DNA of 64,000 bases. It comes from Gautieria morchelliformis. Lineage: Eukaryota; Basidiomycota; Agaricomycetes; Gomphales; Gomphaceae. The notes under the pieces were generated by a model. That model was not told the DNA's origin. It did not search any database and saw only the letters and a program-made list of their open reading frames with translations. A program made the translations under genes and the position numbers. Below, one piece after another: positions 18,205 to 64,000 of this stretch (its first letter is position 1; each line of letters begins with the position of its first letter). Where the stretch lies: NCBI GenBank assembly GCA_015179125.1, contig WHVA01000379.1, positions 50,225 to 114,224 of the forward strand. The letters are read 5' to 3'.

Positions 18205-18211
18205 GGGGGAG

Positions 18212-41508: not shown

Positions 41509-43721
41509 CTACGGTGTCTGGGTTTCCGCAAGGTCATACTGTACAGGGACAAATTCGAGATTGGTCTCCGCTTCTAGAATCGTCTGGTCGTCCAATGCGT
41601 GGGATAATGCGCCAACCCTCGAATTGCCGACAGTGTGTTGTTGTACCGGGGGAAGATATCTAGCTTGGGGCCGGCGCCAGATCATGACTGAATCAATCAT
41701 TGCCTATGTAGAATTCAAATTTCAAAATCAACCCCTGCGACATGGGACAGGAAGGCCTCGTACACTATTAAGGCCAAAGACAAGAAATGCCACCAAGGGA
41801 ACTACAGGACATCACTGTCGATCACGGAAAGGCAAGTGTGGCAACAAAGAACGTACTAGCAGCCTGCAGCATGTCAATCCATATCGGGGCGACTTGAATG
41901 AAGAGGACGGGAGTAGAGTCGTCATGGGATACAGTGGTGATTGGTACAAGGCCGTTAGAGTGCAATTTGTCCAGGAGCGTACCATACGCGCTATAGTGAT
42001 AGACAAACATGTAAGCACCGAAGATAATTAGTGTGATACGGATTAACAACGTACACCGCCACCACGATACGATAACTACTGAACACGATAAAGCGCAGTA
42101 AGATCGAAAGTGAAACAGGGCTTGTTGTCTCTATGAATCGGAACGCCCGCCAATGTCTGCACAGGATGCCAATAATGAGCACTTAAGGCCTCCCAATCAA
42201 AACAGGATTTCCCAGGGTTCATTCCAATTTCAAGTATCTTACCATCGAAGACCGCGGTGACCATTATGAGAGCAAGCGTTACACCGTAAACAACATCCTG
42301 ACTGTAAAGTCAACTAAGAATTCCAATCTTCAAGACGACAATATGCGAGCAATTACTACTCACAAGGCGGTGAATTTAATCATGGTGCAATAAAAGTTTG
42401 CCGATACGACTCTGTCAAGGATGGCGCCTTTAAAATCGAGGGGATCCTTGCCGACCTGCGCTATCGATCAGTGAGGAATCCAAAGTCATTTCCTAGAAAC
42501 TCACGAAGATGGAAGGATATGCGAATGCCACAAGGAGGATGTACGGGGTCACAAGAAGCTATTCAAAGAAGGTTGAGAAGGGTCGAATAGACATTGCCAG
42601 AAAGTGTACCACGTATGTGGTCCAACTAGACCGCTTGATTCCACTCATAGAGTTGGGGTTGCCGATAAAGGTATCACGAATATCAAGCCAGAACTAAAGA
42701 GAAGAATTTAGTACGTTACAAGAACATCGCATGGTTCTGTATATACCTGGATGACGAGGTTCATCATAGAGCAGGCAGTCATCACCTGGGCACCTTCCGT
42801 GAGCGCGGCTTGAGCCAGACAAACATTCCGTGGCACTTCGCCAAGCGGCTTGACAACGGTGTGACCTTCGATTCCATTGTAGAGCCTGGGTGGATCGAGA
42901 TGAGCTATGAATGGATACTCCACAAATAGAAGTACTCACGGAATAGAGAACACGACACTAGAAATTATACAAGTAATACAAAAGTTAAAGAATGTGGGGT
43001 CGCGGCTAACTGTCCGGGAGAAAAAGGCGAATATAAGGACGACAACCAACCCAATGTGCCCTCCTGAGATTTGTAGCGCCAAGAAAGCAGTTTGGCTTCT
43101 TCGGAGGGCTGCCAGATGATGCGTGAATATTACCACAGTGGGCGCAGTGGGCGCTACATAAACAAAAACACACATGCACTATCATGTTCGAATTTCTGGA
43201 CCGCCGCCACAGCCGCGGGTGGGAGATCAAGTCGAATATCAACCTTGAACCCCTCTCGATGACACTGGCTCGTCTCGGCTGAAGGCAGTAGATTAGCACC
43301 GTGAGTTCATAGAGATTCTGGTAAACGTACTATCCAATAGAATTTGAACAATGGCGGAATCCTGAGGCGTGCTAGCTTGACACAGAAAATATAGTCCTTG
43401 GGCGTGAAGAAATTGAAAGGCGCATTTACACTGTGGAACAGTGCAGTTGGTTTGCACTTCCAGGAATTTGGCGCATGTAGCGTTGCACTAAGAATATCAA
43501 GACATTGAGGTCGCAAACAGGTGAACATGAGACATGGGAACGATTACTCACAGCAGCCATATCCGCCTGTCTCAGCGTCAATGAATGGATGACAGGGTTT
43601 GATTGTGCGTTCACTGTATGTCGAGATCAGCAAATATGGATGGGAATGCCAACTCGCAAAAGGAAGCCTTACCGACGGTGGAAAACAGGACTAGGAAACA
43701 GACGCAAAAAATGGAGGGCAT
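41509..43721 (-). CDS. Seven-transmembrane receptor-like protein with Cys-rich ectodomain
   Basis: Fourteen exons, all introns short with GT...AG ends and phases that agree, give an uninterrupted 484-residue protein. It starts MPSIFCVCFLVLFSTV, a signal peptide. The ectodomain has a CFEM-like Cys pattern (CNATCAKFLEVQTNC, VPQCKC, FLCQ, SQCH). Seven helices follow: HIGLVVVLIFAFF, NFCITCIISSVVF, LTEGAQVMTACSMM, LLVTPYILLVAFA, VVYGVTLALIMVTAVFDVL, LSILLRFIVFSSY and MLQAAIPLVAFLVFGLN. A hydrophilic tail ends ETQTP. The layout suggests a plasma-membrane sensor of the agaricomycete 7TM class; the ligand is unknown. A GTACAG donor just before the end of the tail could instead splice into a Ser/Pro-rich extension reaching 40,996. 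A 21-bp palindrome lies about 180 bases upstream. Confidence 0.8.
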
Positions 43722-43901
43722 GGCCTTTCGGTGATAGCTCAGATTATAGTAACGACGCAGAGCAAGAGTAAAGGCGACGAGAATGAAGGGCATAGTCGTT
43801 CAGCAACAGTTGAGATCATACTGATAATGAAAGAGAGATGAAGGGCACATTCAATCTCGGTTGAGCGCAATGACTCGCCAGAAGCCATCTGGACCATCAC
43901 C

Positions 43902-43922
43902 AGCCGAGGTCCCACCTCGGCT
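43902..43922. promoter_or_regulatory. 21-bp palindrome upstream of 7TM gene (right)
   Basis: AGCCGAGGT CCC ACCTCGGCT, the same perfect 9-bp arms as at 22,704-22,724, at the same distance from the start codon. The arms are unchanged although neighbouring bases differ. Confidence 0.5.
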
Positions 43923-46900
43923 GTGTAAAATCACTATTCATACTCTATTGAAACACATGGAGACGGCAAACGCTACGATCTCTCATGTTTAACGTATGTT
44001 CCTTCTCAAATTGCAGCCACTGTATAGGTGTGTACCGTGGCAAGCTCAGGCACAGTCAGGATGAATGAATGAATATAGAGTTAGACTGTGTCAGAATGAT
44101 ATTAGTAAGTTACCTTCTGAACATTAGTAGAACCAACTCACTTTCGTCGTAGCTGGGTGATATAGCCGTACGCTTCGAAACCGGAATGACAAGAAATTGG
44201 ACTCATGACCTGTCTGCAGTCCTTATGCGACATCGATGAGGTATGCCATGCCTTCTGTGTCTTAGACCAGCTATTCTTATTGGTCGGGCAACTGCCTACG
44301 AGAGCCTTCTGTTTGATCGGCGCATGATGATGATGGCGGAACGTTCGACGTGGCATAGCCAGTCGATCCAGTTATCATTCTGATGGTATGTTGAGGTGAG
44401 CTTGCGTCTTTTTATATGAAGTAAACAAGGGGCATGAGTTATCAAGAACGACTTGAGTGTATCGCACTCACATTGGCACATGATGGCTACTACCTATCCA
44501 CCACGTGTCGGAGGCTGATCACACGAGTGGACGCGGATTCCGATAGTACCCATTCTATCCACGCTCTCCATACCGGACTCTCATACTTGTAGACACGGTA
44601 GAGTCACTGCCGTCCCATCTCGGTTAACACCTCGATGGATATACTTGCTTTTTGGTCGCCGTGTATGGCAAGGCCGGCCTCAAGGTTCGGAGTTTGGCAC
44701 GCCGTGGATCGGGTAAAGCTTAGAGTGAGACGCGTTTTAACCAGTTAAATACCATGGCTTGCGGTCAGAGTGCCACGCTGTGCAGTAGTGGATGTACCTA
44801 TGCCCTTGGATGCTCCTTGAAAGAAGTAGGCCTTGGTCGATGAATAGGAGAGACTACAATGGACGGAAGAACGTTCTTGGAGGTCGGGGTGTCGCACATG
44901 CATGCATGACAGACTCGATGCCTGCAAGGCGGATGCCGCGGATCTGTACGGGCCTGCCAGGGCGGCGTCAGGAAGGCAAAAAATAGATGGCAACGCCTGG
45001 TCACTGACGCTGTGAGATGGGACGAACACACGTGATATCCATGGCTTACAGTGAGTCCTCAGAAGTGTCATGGAAATGCTCAGCTGTGGTCCTGGAGCGG
45101 GACGCAGAGCATTCTTCAAAGATGCGCCGAGGCGACTTCGCTCCTCTGTTCGGTGAGTTCTCTGATCGACTTCCTTTCGTTGCTTGTAGCTGATACTTTG
45201 CAAGGCGTTACTGATTATCGTGCCCTTAAGTTGGGCGTCGTCCCAGGGAGTGGTGTTCGGGGAGCTGGGACATCTAGGTGACATAGATCAGTGTACTCTC
45301 ATGTGGCAGGCTGAGAAAACTCACCACATCATGGCTGTTCAATATGCCAGTGTCATGGGATTACGTGCTTATGTATCGGCAGGTCTCAAATTTTCTGCAT
45401 TGTCCTGACTGATCGTGATCGTCGCTATGTTGCAGATATGGGCAGGACTAAAAGAAAGATTTAGGAGCGGAATCGTTCATCGACCTTGACTCACAAAGGA
45501 TCTTGTACAGGCTATAAAGCACTCCACCGGAAGTGCAGGGGCGCATGCGGCTCGTCACTGCTGCAAACGTGAGTCCCTTCTCCGATATGACAGGCATATA
45601 AGCGTACATTATGTAGTCCAGCCTGCGGCCCACATGCAGGCATATGAGTAGTACATACGCTGGGGCGGGACGCTCGTAGCCGTCGGGTTGCCTGCTGGAG
45701 CCAAACTCGGTGCTGATACCTTCACTGTTTACAAGCTAAGTGCAGGGTCTGTAATGGAGCTGCTAATCTGATGCTAGTTCTATATCCAAAGGGAATCAGT
45801 ATAGTAGGATCATACTCTGGGTAAGTGCCGCCACGGAGGTACCGGGTTTCGGGAGGGCGCTACTCCGCTGAAGAAACCGTCAAGATGAAACAGAGGCACT
45901 GGACATGGCCACCTCCGGAAAGATGAAGGCACATATTAATAAAAAAAGTCATTATCAGAACTGGAGAAACATACAAGGGTCTGGAGGCAGGCAGAGTTGT
46001 GTGAAGGGTTGTGTTGGAGATGCCCCAGTGATAATAGCAGTGCTGCACTTCGCGGTCTTTATTTGTGGCGTCCACTGATAGACTTGAATGTAAACAACCA
46101 AAGAGGTGCATCAGCAAGCACATCTTGGATTTCGTGCTATGAGCACCAAAATAGTTTTGGCATTGTCGAGCGACCATTCCGGGTACTAACCCTGCAAAAT
46201 TTGTTGAAAATATTGCCTAACATGGGGATTATTCATACCGCGCAGTATAGCGCGAGGTATTGTTTTAAAATCACTGGAAAGGTTTGAGAAGATGTTGCGA
46301 GATGAGAAGATTATTGGGTTTACGGTCTCGGAGGTAGTAGGGAGTCCCATGAGAAAATTATCATGGAAATTTGTCCGCAAGCGATGCCTATCCATACGAG
46401 ATATTTCCAGCGATACAACTGTATTAATACTGTTCTCCTAGCAATAATATCCTGGTGTACTTACAGGGTGCGTCTGTAGGTGGCACAGAGAACGGCCGCT
46501 TGAAGGGGATCATGGCAGAACTAGTAGAAGAATCGAGTACTAGTTAGGGACCATCTACTACGTGAAGGGAGGTAACACAAACCATTAAAACCAAGAGTAA
46601 TCAGCCCTGAGCTATGGCCCCCTGGCAGCTGCGTCGAAGTCCGAAGGCGCTCCTCACTCATTTCTGCTGCTTAGACACGAAGAAAGTGGGATATTGATGA
46701 ATAATGATCTTCGACGAGAGGACAAGCGGGGAAAGCCACACCGTGTACCACTCGAACAATCAAAGAGTTGTATGGGGTGTGACCGTGACCATCCCCCGTG
46801 ACTTCTCTAGTTCTTGAACAAGCTTTGTGAGTTCTCATTGGTGGAATCTATCATCCACCTGCATCGTTTGCCGGGAAGATGGTTGTACTAGGACTGGGTA

Positions 46901-47318
46901 TCTCCAGACAGCGCTTGTATCGGTGCGGTGGCCTCATCACTATTTTTCATACATGATCATGTCATCTAGTACATCCGCTCTGGACAAGGCACTTGCGATG
47001 TTCCGACTCCTCCGATGTGAGAACATACAGATCATCTTTACTGAGTGTTGGGTATTATGTTTATCGGAACCAGGGTCCTTCAACTTGGTAGCCGTTTCAA
47101 CCGCGGACCCCGAATGATTTTCTGTCAATTTACAGCGAGCTTCCTGACAGCGCTTGTTACCCTTTTGTACTTTCGGCCTACTACACCCGCGTAAGTTGGC
47201 TCTTTCGAGCTTAGTGTGGCAATCTTGTATTACTAGTTTATAAACCCTGACCAGCTCACACAACTTTTCTCAACCTTTCGCTACAATCGTTGTCTTCTTG
47301 ATCGCGCCATAGCCCACC

Positions 47319-47912: not shown

Positions 47913-48599
47913 GTGAACTAGCTTAAGGTGCGTCTCTCCCCAATTCTCCCTCTCGGGCCTTTGCGTACCCTTCACAGCGCCTCCCTCACCCCACTCCCGC
48001 TTCTGCGGCACACAATGATCCATGCACTCACTCTTACTTACCTCTGCTTGCAGGACCATGACGCCTCAGAACACTCTCGAAGGTGCTGAGGAGAGAGTAT
48101 GGGTGTGGAAGAGGAGGGTTCCGGGTTACACCTTTGCCTACTCTAGCTTTGGTGAATGGACAGCGGACTCCACAGCAACCCAGGATGGATCCGGATTTTG
48201 GCTATGTCAAAGCTTCGTTGACACCGGGTTATAACCTCAATTTGTATTGATTTATGTACAAGACAATGTATTTTGACGAAGTCAAATATTCCTTAGTACT
48301 ATACTAGGAATACCGACCAGCAAGCTAGCTCCAAGGCCTTACTGGGATGGTTTTACAAGCACTATCAGGTAGCACAAGCTATGTGCTATTGACGGTGAAG
48401 GCGAGCAGCTGGACGTAAAGCGTGAGCTTGGGGCGCACGTCGACGGTCCTAGTGACCATGCATGTTCCGCGCGACCGAACACCAAGAATGACATTGGATG
48501 AAAGCAGCCAGGTGCCCGACAGAAGTGTATCGTATGCGAGCATGTATGTACATGTGGTTTATCTACTGTACGTGACGTGCGTTGAGAGTTTCGTGCGTC

Positions 48600-50097
48600 C
48601 ATGCCTTGCGTATTGTGTATGCGTTGTCGCGCACCGCAGCCTGCTTCCCACGATCGTTCTGCGCGAGGAAGAAGAGCGCGCAGAGACAAAGCAAGGGTAC
48701 GGAGCGTCAGCAAGTCGTTACCGCAACACATCGGAGAGGGGAGAGAAAACAGAGAACCCTAAACCCAAACGGCGCATAGAGCACACCATCACAAGCAGCA
48801 CCCAAAGATAAAATGTGAAGGTCAACGCAAACAACACACCTGTTGCACATACACCCTAACCAACTCATGATTGATGGGGCGGGGGAAGAAGAGGCGCCCA
48901 AATCGCCGGCGGGGTCCAGCTGGAGCTGCCAGGTGAAGAGGTATTTGTACAGCGTATAGAAGAGGAAAAACGTGGCCACGGCGAGGCCATTTATGATGGG
49001 AGAGATAATGGAGCATCCAAGTGCTGGGGGGCAGGACGGGGCAGGGGAAGCGGCACAAAGAGCAATGGGAAGCGGCAACCTGAGGGAAGAGCATGGCACG
49101 TCAGCACGGGGCACAGAGCAGAAGAAGAAGAACGAGGCTCAATACTCACCAATAACAACCAACAACGTCACATCGGGCCACGGCGTTCCCCACGCAACGT
49201 CACGCATGGTGTAGCGAATACTATAGATCGATCTCGGAGTGGAGCCGAAGAGGGAGAGCTTGACGTAGTAGCTGTTGAGTGAAACGAGATTCAGGAAGCC
49301 GCCCGCGGTGCCAGAGAGGCCTTGGAGGACTATGGACATATCGAGACGATGGGTGAGGGGAAGGAGGGAGACAAGGTGTATAAAGGCCTAACGTAATGAT
49401 ATATGTCAAGAAGAAGGTGTTCGCGTCGGGAAATTTCAGCGCGAGCATAGAAGGGACCTCGGCAGGGTTCTGGAATATACCTGGCAGGGCGGAGATGATG
49501 CCGGAGCTGAGAGTGACGATGAGGAAGCGTTGCTAGGGGATAGAGTGCACGGTCAGCAAGGTGCCAGAATACAGTAAACACGATAAGCGCAGACTCACGA
49601 TGGCCTGAAACAAGAAGAACCTATCCATCAAGCTGAGCTCTATGGCCACGCCCGTCAGGATGTCCTCTGGGAAGGATCCCCTGTATGATGCCGGTGACGG
49701 CGGGAGGGATCCGTGCGGAGCCAGGCAAACCACTTGTAGGTTGCGCAGAGGGAGGCCATGTTAGACACGGTGCCCATGAAGGTGACTGAGTAGTAGCGGA
49801 GGATGGTGGGTGAGCGGATCGCCGCAGCGGCCACGCATACACGTACCTGGAATAGCACATGCCCAGCTCAGGGCGCGCCTGATACGGGCCTCATATAGGT
49901 TGAGTCTAAGGTTTTCCCCATACAATATGTGAGGGTTCCACCTCAATGTATTTGTCGGACATGCGGACCGGTCGTCTAGAGATTAGTATCTGTGCGGCCA
50001 TGTGTGCGCCGATCTGTTGGTGGAGAAGAATGAAGGCGGAGGAGAGCGGGTGATAGGGGACGCCTTGGAGAGTGTTTCTTCCCGATCTCCTCGCCAT
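48600..50097 (-). pseudogene. CSC1/OSCA-like channel pseudogene, right copy
   Basis: Same 5'-truncated gene as 31,793-33,294. Blocks read HPLSSAFILLHQQIGAHMAAQ, VTFMGTVSNMASLCATYKW, ELSLMDRFFLFQ, STPRSIYSIRYT and YSIISPIINGLAVATFFLF, then after an intron LCLCALFFLAQNDRGKQAAV. It lacks about 30 bases near 49,860 that encode part of a membrane helix and shares the internal loss after GIIQGILP with the left copy. An upstream shift near 50,060 is private. CSC1 proteins are calcium-permeable plasma-membrane channels; no product is expected here. Confidence 0.8.
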
Positions 50098-51321
50098 TGC
50101 GCGGCACCGAATGGCTATGTGTAGTAGATCAAAGACATCATGTGGTGATGCATTAGAAAGTCACGGGGAGGTAGTCGTGCCTGGCTTGCCGGGAGTTGCT
50201 GTAGCGATCGGGTGCTTGCTCCGTGATCGTTCTAGGCTGACGTTGTGCAGAGCAGGTGGACCTTTATCATTCTGAAGGGATGTAGAGGCGAGCTGCATGT
50301 CTAGACGTGAGCCAAACAACAGCCTGAGATTTCGAGATCGAACGTTTTCGCAGTGGATGCGCAAGCCCATAGTGATCGTGGGACTTGACATGGATGCTGG
50401 CCATAGGGCACTCATCATACTGGAGCCCGGCATAGCCATAGCAGGAAGACTCACTGGGGTGCCATGTCGGTTGATGCGCTTCGGTGGGCTTACCCGTTTT
50501 CCACTGGCTGTCTCCGAGAGAGATGGGGCTGCGGAATAATATGATACCCAATCAGAAGTCTCAAATGCCAGTGGTGCACAGGCACGTATCGCAGAAGCGG
50601 GCCTTGGTCTGCTTCAGGCCATGAACGGGGTACGCCACAGTAGACGGATGAATACGCTTGGAGGTCGGGATGTCGTCCTGATAGTACGACCCACTTGATG
50701 TCTGATTGAATGTGATTTCGGTGGAGCCGGACGGGCCGCTAGTGTCAACTTCCTGGATGGCCGAAATTGGCTTAACACTTAAGTTCCATGCATAGCTTTC
50801 AGCGGGTCGTCAGCCGTGTGCGGAGCAGGTGTCAAGAAGCGTCTTGCGGTTCTGTCAACTGTCAGTGCATGCAGGGCATTTAGAATGCAAGCTTCATGGA
50901 TCAGAACTTGGCGATATGATTACTACGGTAGAACAGAGAGTTGGTGAAATGGTCGTCAGAAGGGTTCTAATCATAGAGTGCCGTAACAATAGGATCAGTT
51001 CGCGATTGAATTTCGTCCAAAAACGACCTCCGAGGATGAGAATAGGCGCAAAAAAGCGAACTGTGACAACCCCCAACCATGTTTCCCTACACATGTTCAG
51101 CCAAGTGAGTTTTTCGCAGGGACGTCCAAGAGGATGTTGATGGCTTTAGAGGCCTGATTGGGAAAAGCCACAAACCTAGATTCCTAGAAAGGTATCCCAA
51201 TTATCCCAATTACGTAAGGCCAGACCGGGGATCAATACCTAGGATCTTCATACTGGCTGGCCTTCAAACTTCTTTCTTTCTCCCCTTGGAACTGCCGTTT
51301 TCCGTTTGTGGAGCAGCCTTC

Positions 51322-51669
51322 TCATCCCCCACTCACAGATGTACGTAGCCAACTCGAACGTGAAGCGCGCGTGTTAGTCGACTGCAGTAGTATCTGCATT
51401 CCCCTGGTCTCTGATCGACCCTTCGGTTGCCTGAGGCTGTGCTCACAATAAGTAGCTTTATAAGTTTTTCTGTCGCGAAGTTGCATGAACTCGTATTGTA
51501 ACCTTTCCACGTTTGCCGGCACCTCACCTCCGAGGCTCCGGCTCGCCACTGACCTGAACTGTTCTTCCTCATTCATATAATTCAACCAACATAGATAAGC
51601 GTTGTCACTCTCCTTTTGGTATCCCGATCCCGATGGGTTCCTTTGGGTTACGGGCATGTCGAACAACAT
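51322..51669 (-). pseudogene. Unidentified frame conserved in both B copies
   Basis: A 115-codon frame containing VPANVERLQYEFMQLRDRKT and, later, TRASRSSWLRTS. The left copy near 30,270-30,520 keeps the same blocks in shifted frames, and a GTAAGC...GCAG intron may separate them. No family recognised; probably gene debris. Confidence 0.25.
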
Positions 51670-52331
51670 TCAACCCGTGCTTCCTAGTAGTGAGTGGCAT
51701 TTTTATGTCCGCTAATCGGCTACTCTGCTGATTGGGTGGTCGGGGTTCTTCCGGCTTATTCTTGATACCAACGCCCATCTCCCTTACGTACCGGTTCAAT
51801 ATCTGAATTGCACTAAGCGTTGAGCTCTAGAATTTGCCGCTGAGATTTTCTCATGCTCGCCTGGTGGAATATATAAGCCTCTACCCCGATATCCAGCCCA
51901 TCCACCCCTCTCGATCTTGTCTCTCTCTCTATCTTGTCCTCAGTTTGACGAGTGCCGTACCCCAGTCCTATTCCTTCAATTCCAGAGCATTTGCGACCAG
52001 GGTACTAAGTGAGTACTAGCTCCCGTCCATGACATTCCCCGATGCTTTGTGCGCCGCCACAGGTGCAGCGTGGCGACTTTGTAACTCGTCATCTGTCCAC
52101 TCCACTGTGACGAGTCACTCCCCTCCATCTTTCCTGCGCGTCCCACTCCCTGAGTCGGATTATCTATTATTTTTCATACCTACAACCAGGAATACTCACA
52201 TAATACACATATAGCCTGCTACCTCACCCGATCATGCCAGTTTGGCACAGGGAAAATTCGGAATATTACCTCCCGTTTCACCAAACCGGATTCAAGATAT
52301 TAGTCCAGCGCCGTAAGCAGATATCCATGTC

Positions 52332-53169
52332 ATGCTGACACTAGTGTCACTCGCACTCGCCGATCCCTTAGCCGGCTTACTGAAGAAAAGAGAAGAGCTT
52401 GGGCTTAACTCCTTGTCACCCGAGGTGACAAGGAACGGGCATCCTACTGCATCTTTCGGGTCCATCATCAAAGCGGCTATATTGGGCTCGCCTGAGTCCA
52501 AACTCTCCGTCAAGGAGCTGTGCGCCGTCATCCCACGGCGGTACACGTACTACGCCAACTTGGGTAAAAGCGAGGTACGTACTGTTCTCCCCGGTCCACC
52601 CATACTTTCTCGGATCTTTTGACCTTGGCCTGTCATGTTGTCGTGTGCTGATCAACCTTGTCATCGTGGTGTTTTACAGGCCGTGTTAAGGAGCTTTATG
52701 AGACAGAGCAAATTGTTCGAGGCGCAACTCCCCGACGCTTATGGGAGGGTGCGTACACCTATGTGCTATCCCGATGTATGGCCCCGCTCACGTCTAACAG
52801 ATTGACTTGTGGTCGGTTGTCGGCCACGCCGACTGCATAATCCAGTTCGCGCCATCGATGGATCTATTTTGTCAAGCGCTCACCTGGACGCCAGGACAGG
52901 TTCCAGAATTTATTCTGGAGGATGGTCGAAGGATCTGCACCCGTGACCATAGGGCTGAGTCGGAGCCGTCAGGCGCCTGGCTTCAAACCCGACCATTGAG
53001 CGACGCGAGGGAAACCTGCTTGCCACCTCCCGCCTTCGCCCCCGGACTTCAACTGAGAACGGGTGATCAAGACAGCCGGAAGTCTGAGGCAGGTGCGAGG
53101 GTCAACAGCAGTCAGACCCACGAGACCACCTGGGCGACTCGGAGTGCTAGTCAAGACTACGACATCTAG
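52332..53169 (+). CDS. Fork-head-like small protein, right copy
   Basis: Three exons (52,332-52,574; 52,680-52,748; 52,801-53,169), introns GTACGT...ACAG and GTGCGT...ACAG, all phase 0, give 226 residues. Residues about 45-115 match a fork-head winged helix in outline: SFGSIIKAAILGSPESKLSV, RRYTYYANLG, VLRSFMRQSKLFEAQLPDAY and LWSVVGHAD. The tail is hydrophilic and ends SQDYDI. It probably acts as a nuclear DNA-binding protein; the target is unknown. It differs from the left copy at many residues but keeps the splice sites, suggesting it is the functional partner. Only 136 bases separate its stop from the mariner insertion. Confidence 0.65.
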
Positions 53170-53306
53170 GATGCGGCAAACTATGACCTAAGAATGATCA
53201 ATACTTTGCATGTGCACTTTGTATATTCTGTTGTCCTGTTGTCTGGCACAGGCCGGGGTCATGGATCTCGACGTCACAATATCACTTGCAATTTGTCAGC
53301 CAATTA

Positions 53307-53602
53307 CACCTGTTTGCAGTACGCAAGGCGCGCGTCAGGTTTGCCTCCGTTTTAGCGCGCAAGACTCGAACAACGATTTCTCGCTAGTTTCTGCTCGGAT
53401 TGCCTTGAGATTTTGTACCTGAACATAAGTTGACCATAGCTAGGGCACAGAAGTATGAAATCCAAGTAAAACAAACTTTTGAGTTTTGGATTTTTGGCCA
53501 CTAGGCTGGGTGGTCAAACACCCTTCTGTGAGCATCCAAAGGTTTGCATTACAATGAATAACTACATATTCTTCATGTACCTCTAGATAGAATAATGGAT
53601 AG
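53307..53602 (+). repeat. Left terminal inverted repeat of mariner element
   Basis: It matches the reverse complement of 63,211-63,515 over its full length, with scattered substitutions and small indels. It runs to ctagatagaataatgg, just past a possible upstream ATG of the transposase at 53,595. Confidence 0.93.
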
Positions 53603-53684
53603 TCATTGTTGTCGATACTTAGCTAAGACTTTGAAGTCGAAGTCTTTGTTTCGGGAACTTCCGGAAACACTGTACGTCATCCGT

Positions 53685-54889
53685 ATGCCTCGCCCTCTCA
53701 ACCCTCATCCTGTTCGCCGCCATTACAGCAAGGACTTGCGGGATCGGGTTATACACCAGAAATTCAAGCTTCAAAAGACATCAACTCAGATTGCCATTGA
53801 TCTTGACATGTCATTGCGCGTTGTTCAGCGCACAATCAAGCTCTGGCGCGATATCGGAGATGTTGTAACAGAGCCAAGACGGCTCTCTCGTGGTTCAAAG
53901 ATGTCGCCAACTCAGATTGAAGTAAGCTGTTTGTACCTGGGTTTAGCTATCACTTATTTTATAATAGTTTCTTCTCGCGCTTCTTGAACGCTCACCTGAC
54001 CTTTACCTTGATGAACTCGTTGAAGAGCTAGAAGTACAGCATGGCGTTACAGTAAGTATTTCAACTGTATGGAGGACACTCCATAATCTTGGTTTGCAAA
54101 GAAAAAAGGTGAGTTGTTAAATCCTGCAGGAGCACACAATCCTTATTGCTTCCAATCCAGCTTTCCCGGGCAGCAGCAGAGCGCTGTGAAGGTTCACGGA
54201 CAGCTTTCCAGTTATACATCGGTGCTGAGCCACCCGAACGCCTAGTTTTTACAGACGAAAGTGCGATAGATCTTCGTACGACTTACAGGCTAATGGGATG
54301 GGCTTCTAAGGGCTGCAGACCTCGTGTTCGGGCACGCTTCCAAAGAGGCGAGAGGTGACGGTCTGTATATAATTCTCTTTTATGTATCACTGACGTTGAT
54401 TTAGGTTTTCAATCCTTCCGGCACTATCCCAAGATGGCATTATATATAGTGACATCAAGTTGGGCGCATACGATGGCGACGCGTTTCTTGCGTTTCTTGA
54501 AGGTCTGTTAGAGGTCATGAACCCTTATCCGGCACCTCGAAGTGTTCTCGTCATGGATAATTGCGCCATACATCACGTACCTGAGGTCAAGGTCCTGTGT
54601 GCCAAAAGGTATCTTACCGACTGTCTGTTTGCGCAAGCAGTGTCTAATAATGTTGTATGTTTGCAGAGGAGTCAAACTAGTATATCTTCCGCCATACTCG
54701 CCCGATCTCAACCCCATAGAAGAATCATTTTCGTTTATCAAAGCTCACCTCAGACGTCACGGTGCTGAGTTCCGCGCCTGCGTTGCAAGTAAAGAGAAGG
54801 CCCGACCATTCATGTTTCTGTATGAGGCACTGGATCAGATTACGTCGAGACATGCGCAAGGATGGATGAAGGACTCGGGTTATCTGTAG
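53685..54889 (+). CDS. DD34E transposase (Tc1/mariner, DDE_3 type)
   Basis: Five exons (53,685-53,921; 53,968-54,108; 54,161-54,354; 54,405-54,608; 54,667-54,889) with matching phases give 332 residues. An N-terminal helix-turn-helix ([33 protein letters not shown]) should bind the terminal repeats. The catalytic triad is D in [11 protein letters not shown] in [11 protein letters not shown], and E in [12 protein letters not shown], with 34 residues between the second D and E. No break is visible, so it could be active. An in-frame ATG at 53,595, inside the terminal repeat, would add 30 residues; I prefer 53,685 because [17 protein letters not shown] begins a typical N-terminus. Confidence 0.88.
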
Positions 54890-55229
54890 GACTGGAGGAT
54901 ATGCTACTGTGGGAAGCATGAGTCTGTAACTGCAGTGTACTTGATTTTTGTTGTAGCTCACGTTACCTGAGCAGTATATGATGAGTTTTGGTGTCATTAG
55001 TGTTTCACATCCTGTGAGGGATATGATCGTTCATATCCAAACTCCTCGAAACCTTGCATTTGCTATCCAACATAGTACATGGATATTCAAGAAACCTCAA
55101 ATAACAGTATACAGTAAGCCATCAATCAAATTGCTCAAGGGGGACTACAGCGTTGTTAAATGGTTCATAGCACTCTGGAGAGCTACACGTTTTACTGCCT
55201 TCTGAGCTTTCAGCAATGCTATTGAGTCC
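54890..55229. other. Spacer inside mariner element
   Basis: No gene, terminal-repeat copy or recognisable fragment is visible between the transposase stop and the first cargo piece. Confidence 0.4.
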
Positions 55230-55490
55230 ATCATGTCCTCCTTGTCCCTCAATTCTTCTTTGTTTGGGAAAAGGCGACTGCAATTGGTGAGTGTTAGTGA
55301 CGTTCATCTTGCAGAAATGGCATACCTATTCCACCAGTGCAGCAGTTCCTGTACCTCTTCCTCAAAATCCGGGTCTTCTAAAAACTTCACCAGTGCCAGA
55401 AAAACTGGGTGTTATCGAATGAACGGCCGATCTTTTTATTCGTCTCCTCCGAGGATAACGCGAATCGGGTCTGGGTGAGGTAGAGACCAG
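55230..55490 (-). pseudogene. Unidentified protein fragment in mariner cargo
   Basis: Minus-strand blocks HPVFLALVKFLEDPDFEEEV, QELLHWWNR and, beyond a GTGAGT-free gap, LFPNKEELRDKEDMMDSIAL read as protein but are split by stops. They resemble repetitive agaricomycete proteins of unknown role. This is distinct from the TOM1 fragment that follows. Confidence 0.3.
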
Positions 55491-55649
55491 ATCAACGGTA
55501 ACCAGCGATTGTCAGGCCTTTTCTCACCTGTGTTGTGACATACGCCAGAGATCGGCGAGTAACCTGTAGCATGTCAGCCAGTCATAGACAGACAGGCATC
55601 GACTCGTAGAAGCCAAGGACGTACCCGACTTCCGTGTCCTTCTCGACAT

Positions 55650-58308
55650 TCATGGCTGCCATCTGGATAGTCTCGATGGTTTCATCTTGCTGCTCAACGA
55701 AAGGAGCTTCAAGCAAAACTGGAAGATATTTTGTCGAGCCGCGGGATATGATGGTTCATCTGTAATGGCCTGTTGAGAAATTTCCTCATCTTCCTGTGGA
55801 ATGGTAATGGTGTGAGGTTCATCCCCCATGACAAGGAGTGCCTCCGGAACTAAGAGATGAGGTGCTAACCATTTGGGGACGACGGAGGTCTCATTGTCAG
55901 CGTTAAAAGGATGCGCTAGCAGCAGAGCAAGAAAAACGTCCATCAGTTCCTTGGAGGCGTTGGCAGGCAGTCGGGTCTCCAATGATCCAACCTCATTGAG
56001 AACTAGCGCCAGCAAGCGGCAATGAACAGCAAGGGGTTGCTCGTGGATCTCATATGCACCCGGCGAGAAATCTTTGATATCTTGAATAATGAGAGGTAGA
56101 GTTCGTGATGAGTATCCATCTAAAGGCCCAATGAATGCGTTCTTGACGTCGAAAATAAGCGACGGATGTTCGTCTAGAAGACGAAGAGCGCCTCGACCGA
56201 CATCTTCCTTGACTGATTCTCATTGCTCGCCAAGTCCTATTCGCCATTGCTCTGAGGTCTTCGCAACGGTTACCTCAGGTGCCGTGTCCTCAGGTTCGAC
56301 ACGAGTTGATGCCACGTTAGTGTCAACTACTGCAGTCATCTCGGTATCAGTTGGGGTGTCACAGATGCTGACCACAGGCTCTGCTTCGACACCTAAAGGT
56401 TCGTTTGAAGCCGGAGGGTCGAGAGCAACATCTTTGGAGTTGGCGTCATCTGGATCCACGTCAGGTGGGAATGGCAATGGTTGTGCTAGAAGGTACTCGG
56501 CGGCAGCGGTGACATTATTGCGCATTTGAACCAATGCACGTTCCGCGGCAGCGCGTGGAAAGCCCATGTCGCACAACTGTTGTATACCGTTTTCATCCGG
56601 CCCAACATGGCGGTGAAGGACATTGGAACCCCCCACTGACGTAGGCAAGACATCGGGAGCAGACTCGCCTTTGGGCTCCTCGTTCTCGCCAGCCATGAGC
56701 TCTAGCATGGTCAGGACAACAGATTTGCAGACGCTCAGTGGCGCCTGAACCAACCACGGCGACTCCCATAGTTCGCGCACAAAGGGCAACACAGCCGATC
56801 TCAATTTGACAAGAAAGTCTTGAGGCTCGAAGTATTCGGGGTCTGTGTCTTTCATATCCCTGGTCACGAGCAAGAGCGTTTGCAGCGACTCAAATAATGG
56901 CTTTGATGACACCAGCGAGTGCAACAGATGGAGTGCGACCTTCAGACCGCCAAAGACGTGAACAGGTTGCTGCTTGTCATCTTCGCTGCCGTCAGCAGTC
57001 TTGATCTGAACAATACGATCCACGGCGGCGGCATATCGGCGACAGATGGCCAACAGTGTGTCTAGGCCTCCAACCCTGCGGAAGGCCACGATGAGCATCA
57101 TGTGGATGTTGCTGCGCTCTGCAATTGTCCATTAATAACCCGTGAAATTGTGGCTCTAATTGCACATACCCTCAAACAGTAGGACCGTAATTAGGCCCAT
57201 CATCACTGTCCAATAAGCATAAGATGCCAGTATGTCGTCTTCAGAGCACATCTTAGTTAAGGTCGACTAACATGCAACAACAGCATACCAGATCCTTCCC
57301 ACTCAAGATGACATAAGGCGACCTTCGCAACATGGCTTCCGATCGTAATAGCCTGACGCTTCTGTCCAGCGTCCGGGCTCCGCCTATGCAACGAAGGTAA
57401 CTTCACAACGGCTATGACAAATGGGTCATGCACAGAGGATAGGGTTGCTGCCACCGGGCATACCTTGAAAGAAAGGTGTGAGAGAGGTAGGAATCTGGGT
57501 CGCAATATGTTTCAACGCCTTTGCAGTGCGTTCCCACGGGCCATCCTTTTTTACACCTTCCTTTGATTTTCCTTCGTCAAGTGATTGCTCCGATTCTGGG
57601 AGAGCCGATCCAACTTCAACCTCATTTGATAGGTCAGTTGCCTGACCGGCCAACGAGATACCATCTGAGGGACGCCTGGATTACTACGGCTGACATTGAC
57701 ACCTCGTGCTGACAAAGCACTTTTCAAGACTATATTTTCCCAAATGCATGCACGGTGAAGAGCACCAATATCCGGAAGGATATCCGAAGCGTCAGTTCCT
57801 GTAAGGCCTGACAGCAACGACAGCGAGGCTCTCCCATGCGTATAAGTCGATGACGAAAATATATCGGCCATGAGAGTGACACGAGTATGAAGGGCGATAA
57901 GCTTGCGGAATTTTAGGTTACCCTCAAGTAGTTGTTCGTCCGCTGAGAATCTACGGTTAAGACAAAGAAGGCACAAACGAACTCGAACTCACTCGAGATG
58001 TCCACGTAGCACAACAATTTGGACTTGCTGTCCATGGTGCCCCAGAATTCGCGAGTTTCGTCTAATGAAGCCCGGACTTGGCCCAAGACCTTGCTTATGG
58101 TCTGGGTAGGTGCTACATCTGTCATGGCACGTAAAACCTGAACCAGCGCGTCGGATCCAGGGGAGCTTGCATAATTGTAGGGGATGCACGGAAGTGTCAC
58201 GATCCTACCCAAGCGATCAAGGCCATCTGTTTTGGTGATAAAATCGCGACAGCGTGGAGTATGTTGGAACAGGCCCTCGAGGAACTCATCTAATAGGGAT
58301 GACATCAC
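55650..58308 (-). pseudogene. TOM1: TOM1/HUWE1-type E3 ligase fragment
   Basis: Minus-strand exons run through the N-terminal third of the giant HECT ubiquitin ligase TOM1. The DUF913-like part is LLDEFLEGLFQHTPRCRDFI, GLDRLGRIVTLPCIPYNYA and FRKLIALHTRVTLMADIFSS. Then come TQIPTSLTPFFQ, a long exon (57,101 down) with ARM-like helices, and a UBA domain (GIQQLCDMGFPRAAAERALV). The frame has one in-frame TGA at 56,220-56,222 and then continues to 55,650. Introns are kept, so capture happened at the DNA level. The catalytic HECT domain is absent, so no ligase activity is possible. Confidence 0.85.
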
Positions 58309-58319
58309 AGCGCCCTGCG

Positions 58320-58925
58320 AAGGTCTGCTAAGGACTTACATCACTGAAGAGCTGCGCCAGCTCGCCCAGAGTACGCTCAATTCATTTAATGTCTTCGTGG
58401 CGCTCTTGGACATCACGATAGGCCGCGCGCGACTCGCCGTAGCGATCGGAAGATTGAAGCTATTACGCGGGATGAGATAAACGAAGCACAAAAGGAATGA
58501 ACCTTACAGCTTGAGCGAAGATCTGTCCGCCCTGGTCGTCGTTGACTACCACCTTGACTTCATTGGGGGTAGCATCAGGCTTGACTAGACAGAAATCAGC
58601 TTGAGGGCATCGACAGGTGACTATTGACTACCAATCTTGAATTGCTGCTCCATGCGTTGTTTGTACTTAGCCCGGTACTGCTGTTCCACCTGTTGATAGT
58701 TTTGAATGGCCTCGACGAACTTCTGCTTCACCAAGCCCATCTGCATTTTCCATCTACGGTGAAGCGAATATATTCGGTCTATCACAGGTGGTACGCACCT
58801 GTTGCTTGCGGATCTGTCCATCCCTTCCGCTGCCACCCTTCCTTTGAAGGTTCTTGATGTGAACCTTAAGTTCACTCACCTCTTTGAACCAGAGTCTGAT
58901 GAGTTCGAAGGCGTATCAGACAGCG
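58320..58925 (-). pseudogene. Syntaxin (Sso-type t-SNARE) fragment
   Basis: Minus-strand exons encode the Habc/linker part of a plasma-membrane syntaxin: SGRDGQIRKQQ, then VKQKFVEAIQNYQQVEQQYR and YKQRMEQQFKI, then VKPDATPNEV and NDDQGGQIFAQA, then DRYGESRAAYRDVQERHEDI and IERTLGELAQLF. Short introns are kept. A TGA replaces the usual Arg codon between HEDIK and IERT, and the SNARE motif end and membrane anchor are missing. It directly abuts the TOM1 fragment in the same orientation, making a chimeric capture block. Syntaxins drive vesicle fusion; this piece cannot. Confidence 0.85.
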
Positions 58926-59404
58926 AAGATGACGAGGATACAAGGAAGATGATGAGGATGAGGATGGAGATGGTGGCGAAGGATATAGCTGTGTGAGCTA
59001 CCACACCGTGATGGTGCTAACATGATATCGATGAGAGAGCTGGAACGGATACTTCAAGCTTGTAAGTAGGTGAATCCCTTGGACAGTACTTACAGAGCCT
59101 CCATGATGCTTATTCGATGATTATGATGGTTTGAAACGACTATAACATAATAATTGGCAGCCCCAAGCCTGCCTGCACATTATAGGGCTCTGAGCGTGTA
59201 TCGGCTTACAAATTCCACAAGCGCTTATACGGTAGTAGCATCCGGTGCTCATATCCTTCATCACAGAATACCTATGTGCCCGGCGCTCACCTCCAATCAC
59301 TCCCACTCCTCCACCCAAAGACGTAGCGCCCTCTGTAAAACACCGTACGTCCAAAGAGTCACTTATATTCTTGGTAGTATCATGCTGACATTCTTTGGTT
59401 ACTG
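58926..59404. other. Spacer inside mariner cargo
   Basis: Apart from a short acidic plus-strand reading ending near 58,996, nothing recognisable is seen. Confidence 0.35.
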
Positions 59405-60003
59405 AATAGCTCCCGGAGATCGTAGTCACATACCAGAGTCGTCTAAGCCTGCGTATAGCGTCCTCTCAGAGGAGCTGAGATGTTTAAGGCAAATTTCCCC
59501 CGTACGCACGATTATTATGTTAGTTGCCCATTCCTGACCTGTTGATTTAGCCACAGCAAAAGCGTATGGTTGATGACACGGAATGACGACTGGATGCCCT
59601 TTTCGATGCTCTCAACTGTGAGACGCTCTCAAAACCCGTTGTTGAGCAGTTGGTGAATTTGACAAACGGTACGATATTATCTTGGGGTAACTTTGATGAT
59701 CTTCAATGGAGTTTTCTTTCGCAGCGTAGAAATCGAGATGCGGCCATGGCTTCGAGTCCGTGTATCACTCTGCATTGCCTCCGACCATTTCGCAGACGCG
59801 ATTTTACTTGCAGTCAAAGGAGTCGTGGAGCTCTTGCAAAATACGCAGGCCTATTTCGAACGCCAGACGACTATTCTACCATACCTTCGTCTATATCAGT
59901 CGATCGTGACCAATGACCTCACGGACATCATTCAAAACGCAGACCTGCGCGAATGGCAGGAAATTTTCGTTGGCATTGGTGGCAAAAGCTCAAATTATTT
60001 TTA
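59405..60003 (+). pseudogene. SEC31: SEC31 fragments in shuffled order
   Basis: Two pieces of the COPII outer-coat protein Sec31 lie side by side on the plus strand. The first (59,405-59,660) is from the C-terminal end: KPAYSVLSEELRCLRQISP, PQQKRMVDDTE and LFDALNCETLSKPVVEQL, with an intron kept and a stop after DDTE. The second (59,692-59,990) is from the middle of the protein: ADAILLAVKGVVELLQNTQA, YFERQTTILPYLRLYQSIV and DIIQNADLREWQEIFV. In a real Sec31 the second precedes the first, so the pieces were rearranged during or after capture. An AT-rich tract follows. Confidence 0.8.
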
Positions 60004-60054
60004 AATTTTATTGTTGGCTTTTACAATATTGTTCTGAGTAGGATTAAAAATATT

Positions 60055-60076
60055 AAAAAAAAAAAAATTTTTTTTT
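60055..60076. repeat. A13-T9 tract
   Basis: Thirteen A followed directly by nine T, at the edge between the SEC31 fragment and the SAM-like gene. It may be a capture junction or a slippage-prone tract. Confidence 0.7.
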
Positions 60077-60205
60077 AACGTCTCGAGCTCCATATAACGA
60101 AGAACATTATATTTAGACTGATGTTCGTCAACAACGCATGCGCTAAATCTATAGCAATGACTCGTGTTCTACTGATCCTCATAATGATCCATGACCGTCT
60201 CCCAC

Positions 60206-61849
60206 CTATTCCCTGACAAGATTCCTAATAGCTTTCCTGACAGCCCGTGTGATAAAGTTAGCGTCACCCCATGACAATCCAATGTTTGCCATGATAGTAT
60301 CTACCGCTATGTCCTTTAGTTCGTTTAGAAAATACACCTGGTTGGTTTCAAATCTTTCTTTGAGGGAATCGATGTTTCGGCCTCTGGCTTCGGGCCAGGT
60401 ACGAACCTCCTCAAGAAAGTCATTGATGCTAGGAAAATCAATGTTCCCAGGTGTTGTAGGAATGGGCTCACTCTTTCGAGAGTTGGGTGGAGTGGCGGGA
60501 TGGACGGGATAAATGTTTTGAGCAAGTGCTCGATAGTCGTATTGTGGGAAGAAGCCAGGAAACTGCATGACGGGAAAAGAGCCTTGAACGCCGAGTGGGG
60601 CATGACCGGGTATGTTCTGCATCGGCACCTCTTCAGACTTTTCTTTTGGAACCGCATTTTCTTCTTTACGGTAATGGAAGTCTCGGAAATGTGAATTGTT
60701 TGGTGGAGTTTTCAGAGTGACACCATGCATCTCAGAAACCTATTTGTGCATTATTAGCAGTGAGTAGCATGGATACAGTGTATGTACATACCAAGGCCAC
60801 CACCCAGGATTGCAGTTGGTTCCAGGACAAATGTGCATGCTCTCCATTCTTGGTTAGCTTGCAAACCTTTGCAACGCAAGTGCTCTTGCCGCAGTTAGAA
60901 TATTCCGCCTTCAACGCCTCCATGTAATCCTTTTCCCGTTTTGTCAACTGGCCACGCTCTTCGATGTCAGACCCTGAATTGGCATCAGAATCAGCGTTCA
61001 AATCGTGGATCCGAGCTTCTCTCTTCTTTCTGCCCCTGCCACCATTATTTGCCACCGTTTTTCCTTTTTTGCCAGAAAGTGCGTGCCGAAGTGATGCCAT
61101 GTACTAAAATACTACAATATCAGATACGGCTGCCATGACGATCCATATGCACACTTACATCTTCATCCAGGACGATCTCTACTTCTACCCCACTCGCATC
61201 ACCCTTTTTCTTCTTTACCTGAGCGCTCTTCACATCATCCTTGAGAGTGGCCCAGTCATCTTCCTTGGCAAGCTTCGAGAGATGCTTGTCGCGCACTCCT
61301 TTGAGGCGGTAAGCTAGCTGGGGCATTTTTTTCACATTTTTGTAGCACCCAATGGCTTTGAAAACACGCTCCTCCACGTCATTGAAGTGCGCACTAGCTG
61401 GGATTTTGACACGTTCAATAAATCCTTCCGGTTCGGTACAATCCGGAACACGCAAGACAATGTCTAGATAAAGCATGAGCATATATATAATAAAAATATT
61501 AAAATACATACTAGGCTCATCCTTTACCTGTTTATGAACGACATCTACTGGCTCCTCAGATTCTGAGCCGTCCGGTAGCTCGTTGGACTCGGCCTCGGAT
61601 ACGGTTTCCGGTCGAAACTCTTCTTGATCTGAGGCCGGTTCCATCATGTCAGCGAATTGGACCTTTTTTGCTGCCTGACGCTTCGGTCGAGAAGTGCCGG
61701 TTTCATCAGCTGGTAGATCATTTTGTCAGTTTTTGATGAAATTCCATTATTATAACATACTGACCAGGTAATGTTCTTTCCAATGATTCATTGACCATAT
61801 TATCTCTACCAGACTTAGAAGGCTTCCTTTTGTTCTTACCATTCCCCAT
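60206..61849 (-). CDS. SAM-like, basic/acidic nuclear protein gene within mariner element
   Basis: Five exons (61,849-61,765; 61,709-61,512; 61,463-61,159; 61,103-60,792; 60,739-60,206) with consistent phases give 477 residues and no break. The N-terminus is basic (MGNGKNKRKPSKSGRDN), then comes an acidic part. The middle block (VPDCTEPEGFIERVKIPASA ... LKGVRDKHLSKLAKEDDW) has a beta-grasp-like feel. A Cys/His block follows (CGKSTCVAKVCKLTKNGEHA). The C-terminus (FPSINDFLEEVRTWPEARG ... DIAVDTIMANIGLSWGDANF) resembles SAM-like domains. Similar proteins are abundant in Agaricomycetes and I associate them with transposons, but I know no assigned function. It may be an accessory protein or cargo. 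Confidence 0.7.
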
Positions 61850-62313
61850 CGTTGCAGCGGCTACAGCAAGTCGAATCGGGTCGGATAACGCCGACTCATT
61901 TTTACGTGTGAGTAACGTACTTCACGCTCGCTCGTTCCTTCTACTCTGACATTATATCTTAGCGCACCTGCAGACACAGTGGAGGTAATTTTTCCTTCTT
62001 TGAATCTACATTCATGATGCTGACTGGATCTGTGCTTTGTTGCATTGTGCTCTCTGGAGTGCTTGTCGCAGGCTTGTTTCTATCTTTTTTTCAAGTAAAA
62101 TAGCAAGTCCTGTGCAAAATAATGGAAGGCCCCCTGCGCCAGTCAGAGCGTTTGGGCCAGCTTAGGTCTATTGGCAATTCCCGGCCCAAAGCTAAGGTGC
62201 GCATTCTTTACGATGTGACACGCATTGCCAGCAATCATATTATAATCTTAGATTTCACCTATACCTGTTTGCCCGCATTATGATCACCAAGATCATCATT
62301 CACAAGGATACAA
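61850..62313 (+). other. Region upstream of SAM-like gene
   Basis: A short plus-strand reading MEGPLRQSERLGQLRSIG begins at about 62,123 and meets a GTGCGC donor-like site after 25 codons, so it could be a first exon, but no continuation is found. Otherwise this is probably the shared promoter region. Confidence 0.3.
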
Positions 62314-62359
62314 TCATCCTGAAGAATTGTCTAATACATCATACGGTCTTCCATGCCGA

Positions 62360-62910
62360 CCCCTTAATTCCCGCGACACCCGCCTGGGCGGTCGTTCCTC
62401 TGCGACCGCACCGGGCGCCGCCGCCTCTTCCTCCTCTCCTGCGCGGGGATGTCCCTCTTCTTCACGGTGCAGACCATGTGCAGCGCGCAGTTCGCGATCA
62501 CCGGCTCGACGGCGGCGCACGCGAGCTCCGCGCTGGGGAGGACGGCATCGACGCAGCAGAGCGCGCGGCGTGTGGCCTGACGCTGACGCGGAGGAGGCGC
62601 ACGCGGGGCCGACGGTGAGCGTGCTGAGGCGTGGCGGGAGGCGCGCGGCGAGGGCGGGCCAGTGCGCGGGGGGCACGTTGACAAGGGCGAGGCGCGCGAG
62701 GCGGGGCGCGAGCGCGAGGATGCGGTGCACGGCGGCGAGGCACGCGGGGGGCCACGCGAAGGTGTCGAAGGGCGCGGCGGAGGCGGCGTCGTCCAGGGCG
62801 AGGGCGGGACAGCCCGGGGCGCCGATGGGCACTCTAACAAAAGGCGAGTTGCTTCTAAGGCACGCTGTTACGATCGATATACTGCGCGGTCCAGGCCCAC
62901 TCGGGGAATA
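62360..62910 (-). pseudogene. GC-rich F-box/LRR-like gene fragment
   Basis: The minus strand reads SPFVRVPIGAPGCPALALDD and then CLAAVHRILALAPRLARLAL, VNVPPAHWPALAARLPPRL and STLTVGPACA, in the style of leucine-rich tails of agaricomycete F-box-like proteins. Continuing downstream the frame changes to low-complexity Arg/Ala and becomes meaningless, while another frame reads VEPVIANCALHMVCTVKKRD. The core is visibly above 70% G+C, against roughly 45-50% around it, so it came from a compositionally different place. It lies between the SAM-like gene and the right terminal repeat. Confidence 0.5.
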
Positions 62911-63210
62911 TTTGTGCATGTGATCCACGAGTTTACCCGGGCCGCGAGGATTGAAGACCTCCGAGCGAGCCAGTCGAGCGGTCGTAGTACGAGTACGAGT
63001 ACTGCCTAGAGTAAGGAGTATTATATATGTGACATCTGGTAGCGCGGAGCGCATTACTAGTTACTGGTGTAGAGTCACCTTAAACCCGGTATTTATCATG
63101 CAGGAGAGGCACATTCGAGCATGAGGCGGCGGATGTGCGTCTGCTATCCTTGGTAGTAGGTCGAACAGTCTTCTCTTGGGGCTTATGGACGTGGCGGTAG
63201 CGGGTCAACA

Positions 63211-63515
63211 ACTAGCCATTATTCTATCTAGACTGGTACCTATGAAGAATATGTAGTTATTTATTACAGTGATGCAAACCTTTGGATACTCACAAAAGGG
63301 TGTTTGACCACCCAGCCTAGTGGCCAAAAATGCAAAAACTCAAAAGTTTGTCTTACTTGGATTTCATACATCTGTGCCCTAGCTATGATCAACATATGTT
63401 CATGTACAAAATCTCAAGGCAATCCGAGCAGAAGCTAGTGAGAAATCCTTGTTCGAGTTTTGCGCGCTAAAATGGAGTCAAATTTGACGCGCGCCTTACG
63501 TACTGCAAACAGGTG
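63211..63515 (-). repeat. Right terminal inverted repeat of mariner element
   Basis: Reverse complement of 53,307-53,602. The outermost 17 bases (CGTACTGCAAACAGGTG) mirror the left end exactly. TA follows at 63,516-63,517. Confidence 0.93.
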
Positions 63516-63517
63516 TA

Positions 63518-63651
63518 ACTTATTATTTGATAACCACTCACAAAATGCAAGCACTTGACGCGGATGTGGATGACTCGGAGACCGGTGCGCACGCCATATA
63601 TTGCTGAACACAGCGTGTTAGCGAATCTCCGCGGGGACAAGGATGCTGCCA
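63518..63651 (-). repeat. Continuation of segment B beyond the mariner element
   Basis: Matches the reverse complement of 28,427-28,547 (accactcacaaaatgcaagcactt, ctgaacacagcgtgttagcga, ctccgcggggacaaggatgct). Homology ends at 63,651. Confidence 0.85.
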
Positions 63652-63817
63652 AGCGCGCAACCAAAGACAAGGAGGAGCTTTCTCACGCCTACCACCACAT
63701 CCAAAAACCAAAAAACCCACTTCATAGCCACACGGCCACCCAAACACCTCCCAGCCTATCGCTGACCAAAGTCGGCGATAGCATCCAGCTTCCTCAAAAG
63801 AAGAAGCGACCAAAACG

Positions 63818-64000
63818 ATGCCTCCGAGCGTCGAACCCCAAACGCCTGCCACGTCACAAGGTCGCACGAGAGCTAGCACCACGCAGCAGGCGAACAACAA
63901 AACTAGGGCCGAGCTGTTACTAGAGCCAAATACGTCAGTACGGACGAGGGAACAAGCGCGGCAGTACCTCGACAAACATGGATACTACGCGAAAGAGGAC
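63818..64000 (+). CDS. Start of an unidentified gene, cut by the right edge
   Basis: An ATG at 63,818 opens a frame of 61 codons without a stop to the last base: MPPSVEPQTPATSQGRTRAS, then LLLEPNTSVRTREQARQYLD, then KHGYYAKED. The helical Arg/Gln-rich pattern looks like real coding sequence. I cannot name the family. It might equally be a first exon. Confidence 0.4.
   Translation, partial: MPPSVEPQTPATSQGRTRASTTQQANNKTRAELLLEPNTSVRTREQARQYLDKHGYYAKED

Follow-up and report, generated by a model that had tools for sequence, protein, structure and literature searches.

A 10.2-kb Tc1/mariner-type transposon with an open transposase and host-gene fragments in Gautieria morchelliformis

Limits of the element and its transposase

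We characterized a 10,209-bp unit (53307–63515) inside a 64,000-nt stretch of contig WHVA01000379.1 from the basidiomycete Gautieria morchelliformis; this whole stretch is called the window, and all coordinates refer to it. Short introns, similarity to an SSO-type syntaxin and the retroelement content of the DNA also point to a fungal host. The unit is bounded by terminal inverted repeats (TIRs) of about 300 bp, of which the left one starts right after a TA dinucleotide and the right one stops right before another. A spliced transposase gene lies near the left TIR, and 8.3 kb of other DNA, the cargo, separates its stop codon from the right TIR. The features that define the element are as follows.

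53305–53306, no strand: left TA target-site duplication (sequence)
53307–53603, plus strand: left TIR (self-BLAST against the right arm)
53685–54889, plus strand: DD34E IS630-Tc1-mariner transposase, five exons, 332 aa, no internal stop (splice model, DDE_3, IS630 model, catalytic spacing)
63211–63515, minus strand: right TIR (self-BLAST)
63516–63517, no strand: right TA target-site duplication (sequence)

By self-BLAST, the two arms align over 308 columns with 90.9% identity (53304–53603 against 63518–63211; E = 9.5e-114), and their outermost 17 bp are identical. When 53000–64000 was searched, the longest other inverted pair was 37 nt at 70% identity, and the pairing of the TIRs is therefore far beyond chance. 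The 9% difference between the arms indicates that this copy of the element, or its source, is not young. With either arm as the query, the window yielded, besides the two ends, only matches of 17 bp or less (E = 1.9 or worse). Within the element itself, no self-BLAST match to an arm exceeded 14 bp. An exact-match search of the TIRs for direct repeats of the Sleeping Beauty kind found none of 10 bp or more. The 17-bp end also matched two viral contigs, each of which aligned with the element over at most 23 bases by blastn, and we took these matches as chance.

The transposase is encoded by exons at 53685–53921, 53968–54108, 54161–54354, 54405–54608 and 54667–54889, separated by four GT-AG introns of 46–58 bp. 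The splice model gives a stop-free frame of 332 aa, which ends at a TAG codon read from the sequence at 54887–54889. The protein contains a DDE_3 domain (Pfam, E = 3.2e-29), helix-turn-helix families match its N-terminal part, and the score with the NCBIfam IS630 model is 165.9 bits, where the cut-off lies at 100. We positioned the catalytic triad by eye on the motifs (D158, D242 and E277), with 34 residues separating the last two. A search of the PDB returned six matches, all at E = 0.069 or worse and none of them a transposase. Pattern searches for relatives gave two matches in viral contigs and 12 in bacterial and archaeal genomes, none of which was confirmed.

The element combines TIRs and a TA target-site duplication with a DDE transposase of DD34E spacing, the combination that characterizes the IS630-Tc1-mariner group. 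A preliminary description of this DNA had proposed a 10.2-kb Tc1/mariner-type element at 53307–63515 with inverted ends of about 300 bp, TA duplications and an intact-looking, spliced 332-residue DD34E transposase beside one end. Its coordinates proved exact, and the inverted ends, both TA dinucleotides and the five stop-free exons near the left TIR were all recovered.

An element-free copy of the insertion site

We found that the flanks of the element belong to a repeat that is present again in the window, in inverted orientation and with the element absent.

28421–29549, minus strand: element-free paralogue of the flanking repeat, with the join at 28542–28547 (BLAST and alignment)

The left flank (52308–53306, the last bases of which are the left TA) aligns to 29549–28548 with 77.1% identity (E = 6.5e-149), and the right flank (63522–63651) aligns to 28541–28421 with 84.7% identity (E = 5.8e-30). 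The two matches lie only 6 bp apart in the element-free copy (28542–28547); in the filled site, the corresponding space is taken up by the element, followed by the second TA and 4 bp. This paralogous site, which is an addition to the preliminary description, identifies the whole 10.2 kb as additional sequence at a single point. The earlier claim of 8.3 kb of other DNA ahead of the opposite end is likewise supported, as DNA unrelated to the transposase lies between the same two ends.

A shorter relative of the repeat (38560–38652) matches 28518–28607 straight through the join with 83.9% identity. Because the join is uninterrupted at two places, the alignments fit a site that predates the insertion better than an ancient excision, with copies too diverged for the exact join to be read. 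As judged from these alignments, the element-free copy fixes both ends of the element and makes them secure, and it is silent on whether all 10.2 kb arrived at once.

Contents and origin of the cargo

Between the transposase stop codon and the right TIR we distinguished five features.

55650–58335, minus strand: probably one Tom1/HUWE1-like gene in pieces, with a DUF913 end and a UBA domain, in-frame stop at 56220–56222 (Pfam)
58340–58879, minus strand: SSO1/2-type syntaxin gene fragment with three GT-AG introns, in-frame stop at 58382–58384 (PDB, Pfam)
59720–59970, plus strand: possible SEC31 fragment, weak (best PDB matches at E = 0.63 and 0.7, with unrelated proteins close behind)
60206–61849, minus strand: intact-looking gene with five exons and four GT-AG introns, 477 aa (splice model)
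62350–62860, no strand: GC-rich island, possibly another captured piece (base composition)

The syntaxin piece corresponds to a mid-protein portion of SSO2, matching chain residues 101–208 of the PDB entry (E = 4.3e-18). The spliced piece, in which the acceptor of the first intron was read by eye, matches the Pfam Syntaxin family above the curated cut-off (E = 2.6e-8), while a single ORF from it falls below that cut-off (E = 5.9e-5). Since its introns are retained, this piece would have been captured from DNA and not from mRNA.

The neighboring pieces are also on the minus strand, with 55650–58335 marking the limits of their open frames and not those of homology. The DUF913 end (Pfam, E = 3.6e-7) lies at about 58290–58174, and the UBA domain (UBA_7, E = 1.3e-11) at about 56597–56481. 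The DUF913 piece has an open frame that begins at 58335, slightly below the splice donor at 58339 that closes the syntaxin piece, and the match itself starts about 45 bp beyond that frame start. In the UBA frame, the stop at 56220–56222 splits two long open stretches, and the ORF at 55650–56219 has no Pfam match. In the PDB, the DUF913 piece had no match up to E = 1, and the UBA ORF had 16 weak matches up to the same limit, mostly to UBA-domain proteins (a RAD23 homologue was best at E = 0.0042, and the HUWE1 UBA domain followed at E = 0.021). DUF913 together with UBA is, we presume, the combination of the Tom1/HUWE1 ligases, and it is on this pair that both the name and the common origin rest; the two matches probably derive from one Tom1/HUWE1-like gene.

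The other three features are of less certain kind. The candidate SEC31 scrap has no match in Pfam. For the 477-aa gene, we found no relatives in Pfam or the PDB, and the one pattern match in viral contigs was not confirmed. The GC-rich island stands at 74% GC, compared to 48.7% for the whole element, and the four ORFs that cover it have no Pfam match.

As read from these matches, the 8.3-kb cargo is, at least in part, a mosaic. Fragments of host genes (syntaxin, DUF913 and UBA) lie between the TIRs, as in Pack-TYPE or transduplicating elements. In-frame stops occur in these pieces and introns are kept in the syntaxin fragment, while the transposase frame has no stop. With moderate confidence, we favor the explanation that an IS630-Tc1-mariner transposon was enlarged to 10.2 kb by capturing pieces of host genes at the DNA level (transduplication, or Pack-type capture). 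The arrangement suggests that in fungi such elements may acquire host DNA and transport it. On the other side, the window shows a single copy of the element, no parental host gene was encountered, and the divergence of the TIRs speaks against a young copy or source.

The TIRs, the insertion point, the transposase frame, the gene fragments and the introns are observed in the sequence; the capture mechanism, current activity and mobility as a unit are what we infer. The transposase would bind the long TIRs, excise the unit and insert it at a TA. After an excision, the gap could be repaired from a homologous copy, with synthesis switching its template to host genes; alternatively, the repair of a break inside a resident copy could have brought in the cargo. 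The enlarged element would retain both TIRs and the transposase, with the cargo placed between the transposase gene and the right TIR. The cargo would then be carried passively, decaying while the transposase frame stayed open.

A rather less probable history starts with a short Tc1/mariner element of about 1.9 kb that landed at the TA and was filled there afterwards by one or more further insertions; the 10.2 kb would then never have transposed as one piece. A Helitron able to capture genes might have done the filling, or some other element whose ends escaped recognition. The mixed origin of the cargo, including one weak piece in the opposite orientation (the SEC31 candidate), fits such a history, and the 477-aa gene could be part of another element. 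The window is, moreover, full of repeats and retroelements. Against it, our scans for a nested mobile element found neither a nested TIR pair with a target-site duplication, nor a Helitron-like end, nor LTR-like repeats. A nested pair of 12-bp TIRs with a target-site duplication of at least 4 bp was observed zero times within the element (20 block shuffles gave 0 or 1 each). A Helitron 3′ hairpin followed by CTRR was likewise observed zero times on both strands of 54890–63210 (0–2 in each of 20 shuffles), when defined as perfect GC-rich stems of 6–10 bp, then CTRR and T, a definition that degraded ends escape. Within 54880–63215 no LTR-like direct repeat exceeded 27 nt; the direct repeats form eight families, the longest at 27 nt and several inside the GC-rich island. 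Because the shuffles also gave approximately zero, the scans are poorly suited to detecting ends that are short or degraded. Additionally, in the available part of one study, intact Helitrons of Pleurotus were described as free of host gene fragments (PMC4289320).

Gene-like scraps are present in the flanking repeat as well, which also speaks for filling in place. As a control, we used the repeat-rich region between 18.5 and 53.3 kb, which contains 25 ORFs of at least 120 aa. We scanned 22 of these against Pfam (two at E up to 0.01 and 20 at E up to 0.1), leaving out 20936–21439, 25086–25493 and 48419–48811. RSN1_7TM was matched by two of the 22, at E = 0.00097 and 0.00018, neither of which reaches the curated cut-off; the two are copies of one another, one in each inverted copy of a single repeat. 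The element set held 20 distinct ORFs that were selected by eye and included some below 120 aa, so that its lengths are not strictly comparable to those of the control. Three of the 20 (UBA, DUF913 and Syntaxin) hit Pfam families other than those of transposons with E values of 0.01 or lower, UBA and DUF913 above the curated cut-off. Cargo and surroundings differ little by count, and the pieces in the element are clearer by match strength. Two more matches in the element (E = 0.03 and 0.12) fell well short of the cut-off, and we attribute them to chance. Since the flanking repeats hold gene scraps too, the case for capture by the element itself is weakened.

Quite improbable, in our judgment, is a functional cargo transposon, in which the 477-aa gene is maintained because it serves the element or the host and the element acts as an autonomous gene mover. 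The gene model remains open over five exons, with GT-AG borders at all four introns, beside fragments that carry stops. That reading is opposed by the presence of a single copy of the element in the 64-kb window and by the absence of a homologue of the 477-aa protein from Pfam, the PDB and viral contigs.

Relation to known elements

Tc1/mariner-type transposons are usually one to three thousand nucleotides long. Ant1 of Aspergillus niger, a fungal element of the same type with a piece of an amdS-like gene, has a length of about 4.8 kb and short TIRs, and is smaller than the 10,209-bp element described here.

The preliminary description had also proposed a new kind of gene-moving element. This proposal did not hold, because two of the cargo pieces are ordinary, host-type gene fragments with in-frame stops, and because gene capture by fungal DNA transposons has been published, including capture by a Tc1/mariner element of Pyrenophora tritici-repentis (PMC3538342). 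In the available text of that study, a foreign ORF was captured by a family of 46 members, 31 of which have both coding regions at full length. Like our element, the transduplicating element is fungal and holds foreign coding DNA between its TIRs; it differs in carrying one ORF, compared to gene fragments plus a 477-aa gene in a single copy in the window, and no length is stated for it in that text.

Large fungal DNA transposons with a captured housekeeping gene are also known among the hAT elements that carry histone H3, which reach about 9.5 kb in Pseudocercospora fijiensis (PMC6710886) and about 5.6 kb in P. tritici-repentis (PMC3538342). As far as the consulted parts of these papers describe them, they belong to another superfamily (hAT) and exist in many copies, those of P. 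fijiensis having an 8-bp target-site duplication and 20-bp TIRs (PMC6710886). The Pack-Mariner elements of rice and maize share mariner-type TIRs around pieces of at least one host gene (PMC8903248). In the portion of that source at hand, Pack-TYPE elements are described as non-autonomous plant elements (PMC8903248), whereas an open transposase is present here; the element consequently departs from the plant definition, which calls for non-autonomy and the lack of a transposase.

In terms of size, a close comparison is Tc1-OP1 of Ogataea (5,659 bp), a fungal Tc1 element whose TIRs are also long (169 bp) and which was called the largest Tc1/mariner to date in 2023 (PMC9977792). According to the available part of that paper, a 1,155-aa ORF and an extended 3′ UTR account for the size of Tc1-OP1, whose motif is DD40E, in contrast to the 10,209 bp, gene fragments and DD34E spacing found here. 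The element is approximately 1.8 times as long as Tc1-OP1 and joins several gene fragments to an open transposase, without constituting a new kind. Among the matches listed by our search of open-licence literature, as far as their accessible portions extend, we found no Tc1/mariner element of about 10 kb that bears gene fragments. If the element moved as a unit, the upper size of Tc1/mariner elements would be well above 5.66 kb (PMC9977792, consulted in part). Tc1/mariner elements, in addition to hAT elements, Helitrons and Starships, would then be capable, in fungi, of collecting pieces from several host genes while still encoding a transposase.

A further reading extends to a whole fungal lineage of autonomous Tc1/mariner elements able to move over 10 kb of DNA, with pieces from several host genes mixed inside long TIRs and with a conserved accessory gene of their own, in parallel to the Starships; we regard it as unlikely. 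No tyrosine-recombinase captain of the Starship type was found by Pfam in the transposase, the 477-aa gene or the 20 distinct ORFs inside the element. "Icarus," a putative Starship of 294 kb in P. tritici-repentis, similarly has a fungal cargo region, terminal inverted repeats and DDE genes at the captain position (PMC9594970). It is far larger, and the part of the report available gives no Tc1/mariner assignment; there the authors also weigh the possibility that the DDE genes inserted later and that the element is disabled (PMC9594970). Captured pieces within inverted terminal repeats are described outside the fungi as well, with Turmoil-1 of C. elegans as a Harbinger example in the excerpt available (PMC2572040).

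Joins within the cargo

A splice donor (58339) closes the syntaxin piece captured in the transposon's cargo. The open frame bearing the DUF913 match has the same orientation and begins at 58335, with the match itself running from about 58290. Judged from sequence, a chimeric syntaxin/DUF913 transcript across 58290-58340 is possible. An AT-rich stretch (60006-60080), in which A runs are followed by T runs, separates the SEC31-like scrap from the 477-aa gene and is possibly a junction in the cargo.

Large repeats around the element

Self-BLAST identified large repeats, some copies being direct and others inverted:

18948-26441
28421-33725
35651-38510
40143-47296
47936-53306

Long matches between these repeats have identities of about 77-92%, and the arrangement is A-B, followed by an inverted A'-B'. 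We found no transposase by Pfam among the scanned ORFs of these repeats (22 of the 25 ORFs of at least 120 aa in 18.5-53.3 kb). The flanking repeat, into which the element sits, may also contain a gene scrap, as a weak RSN1_7TM-like stretch was detected by Pfam scan in both copies:

32327-32689 (+), one copy
48707-49138 (-), the other copy

Retrotransposons in the window

Pfam scans located two Gypsy-type polyprotein ORFs:

2-3691 (+), 1229 aa, C-terminal chromodomain; open at the window start
5933-8143 (-)

One further element has direct terminal repeats:

13705-18513, Copia-type LTR retrotransposon

Its terminal repeats are 302 bp with 97.4% identity (self-BLAST of the window), and the ORFs between them carry copia gag and pol domains (Pfam). 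We consider this element comparatively young.
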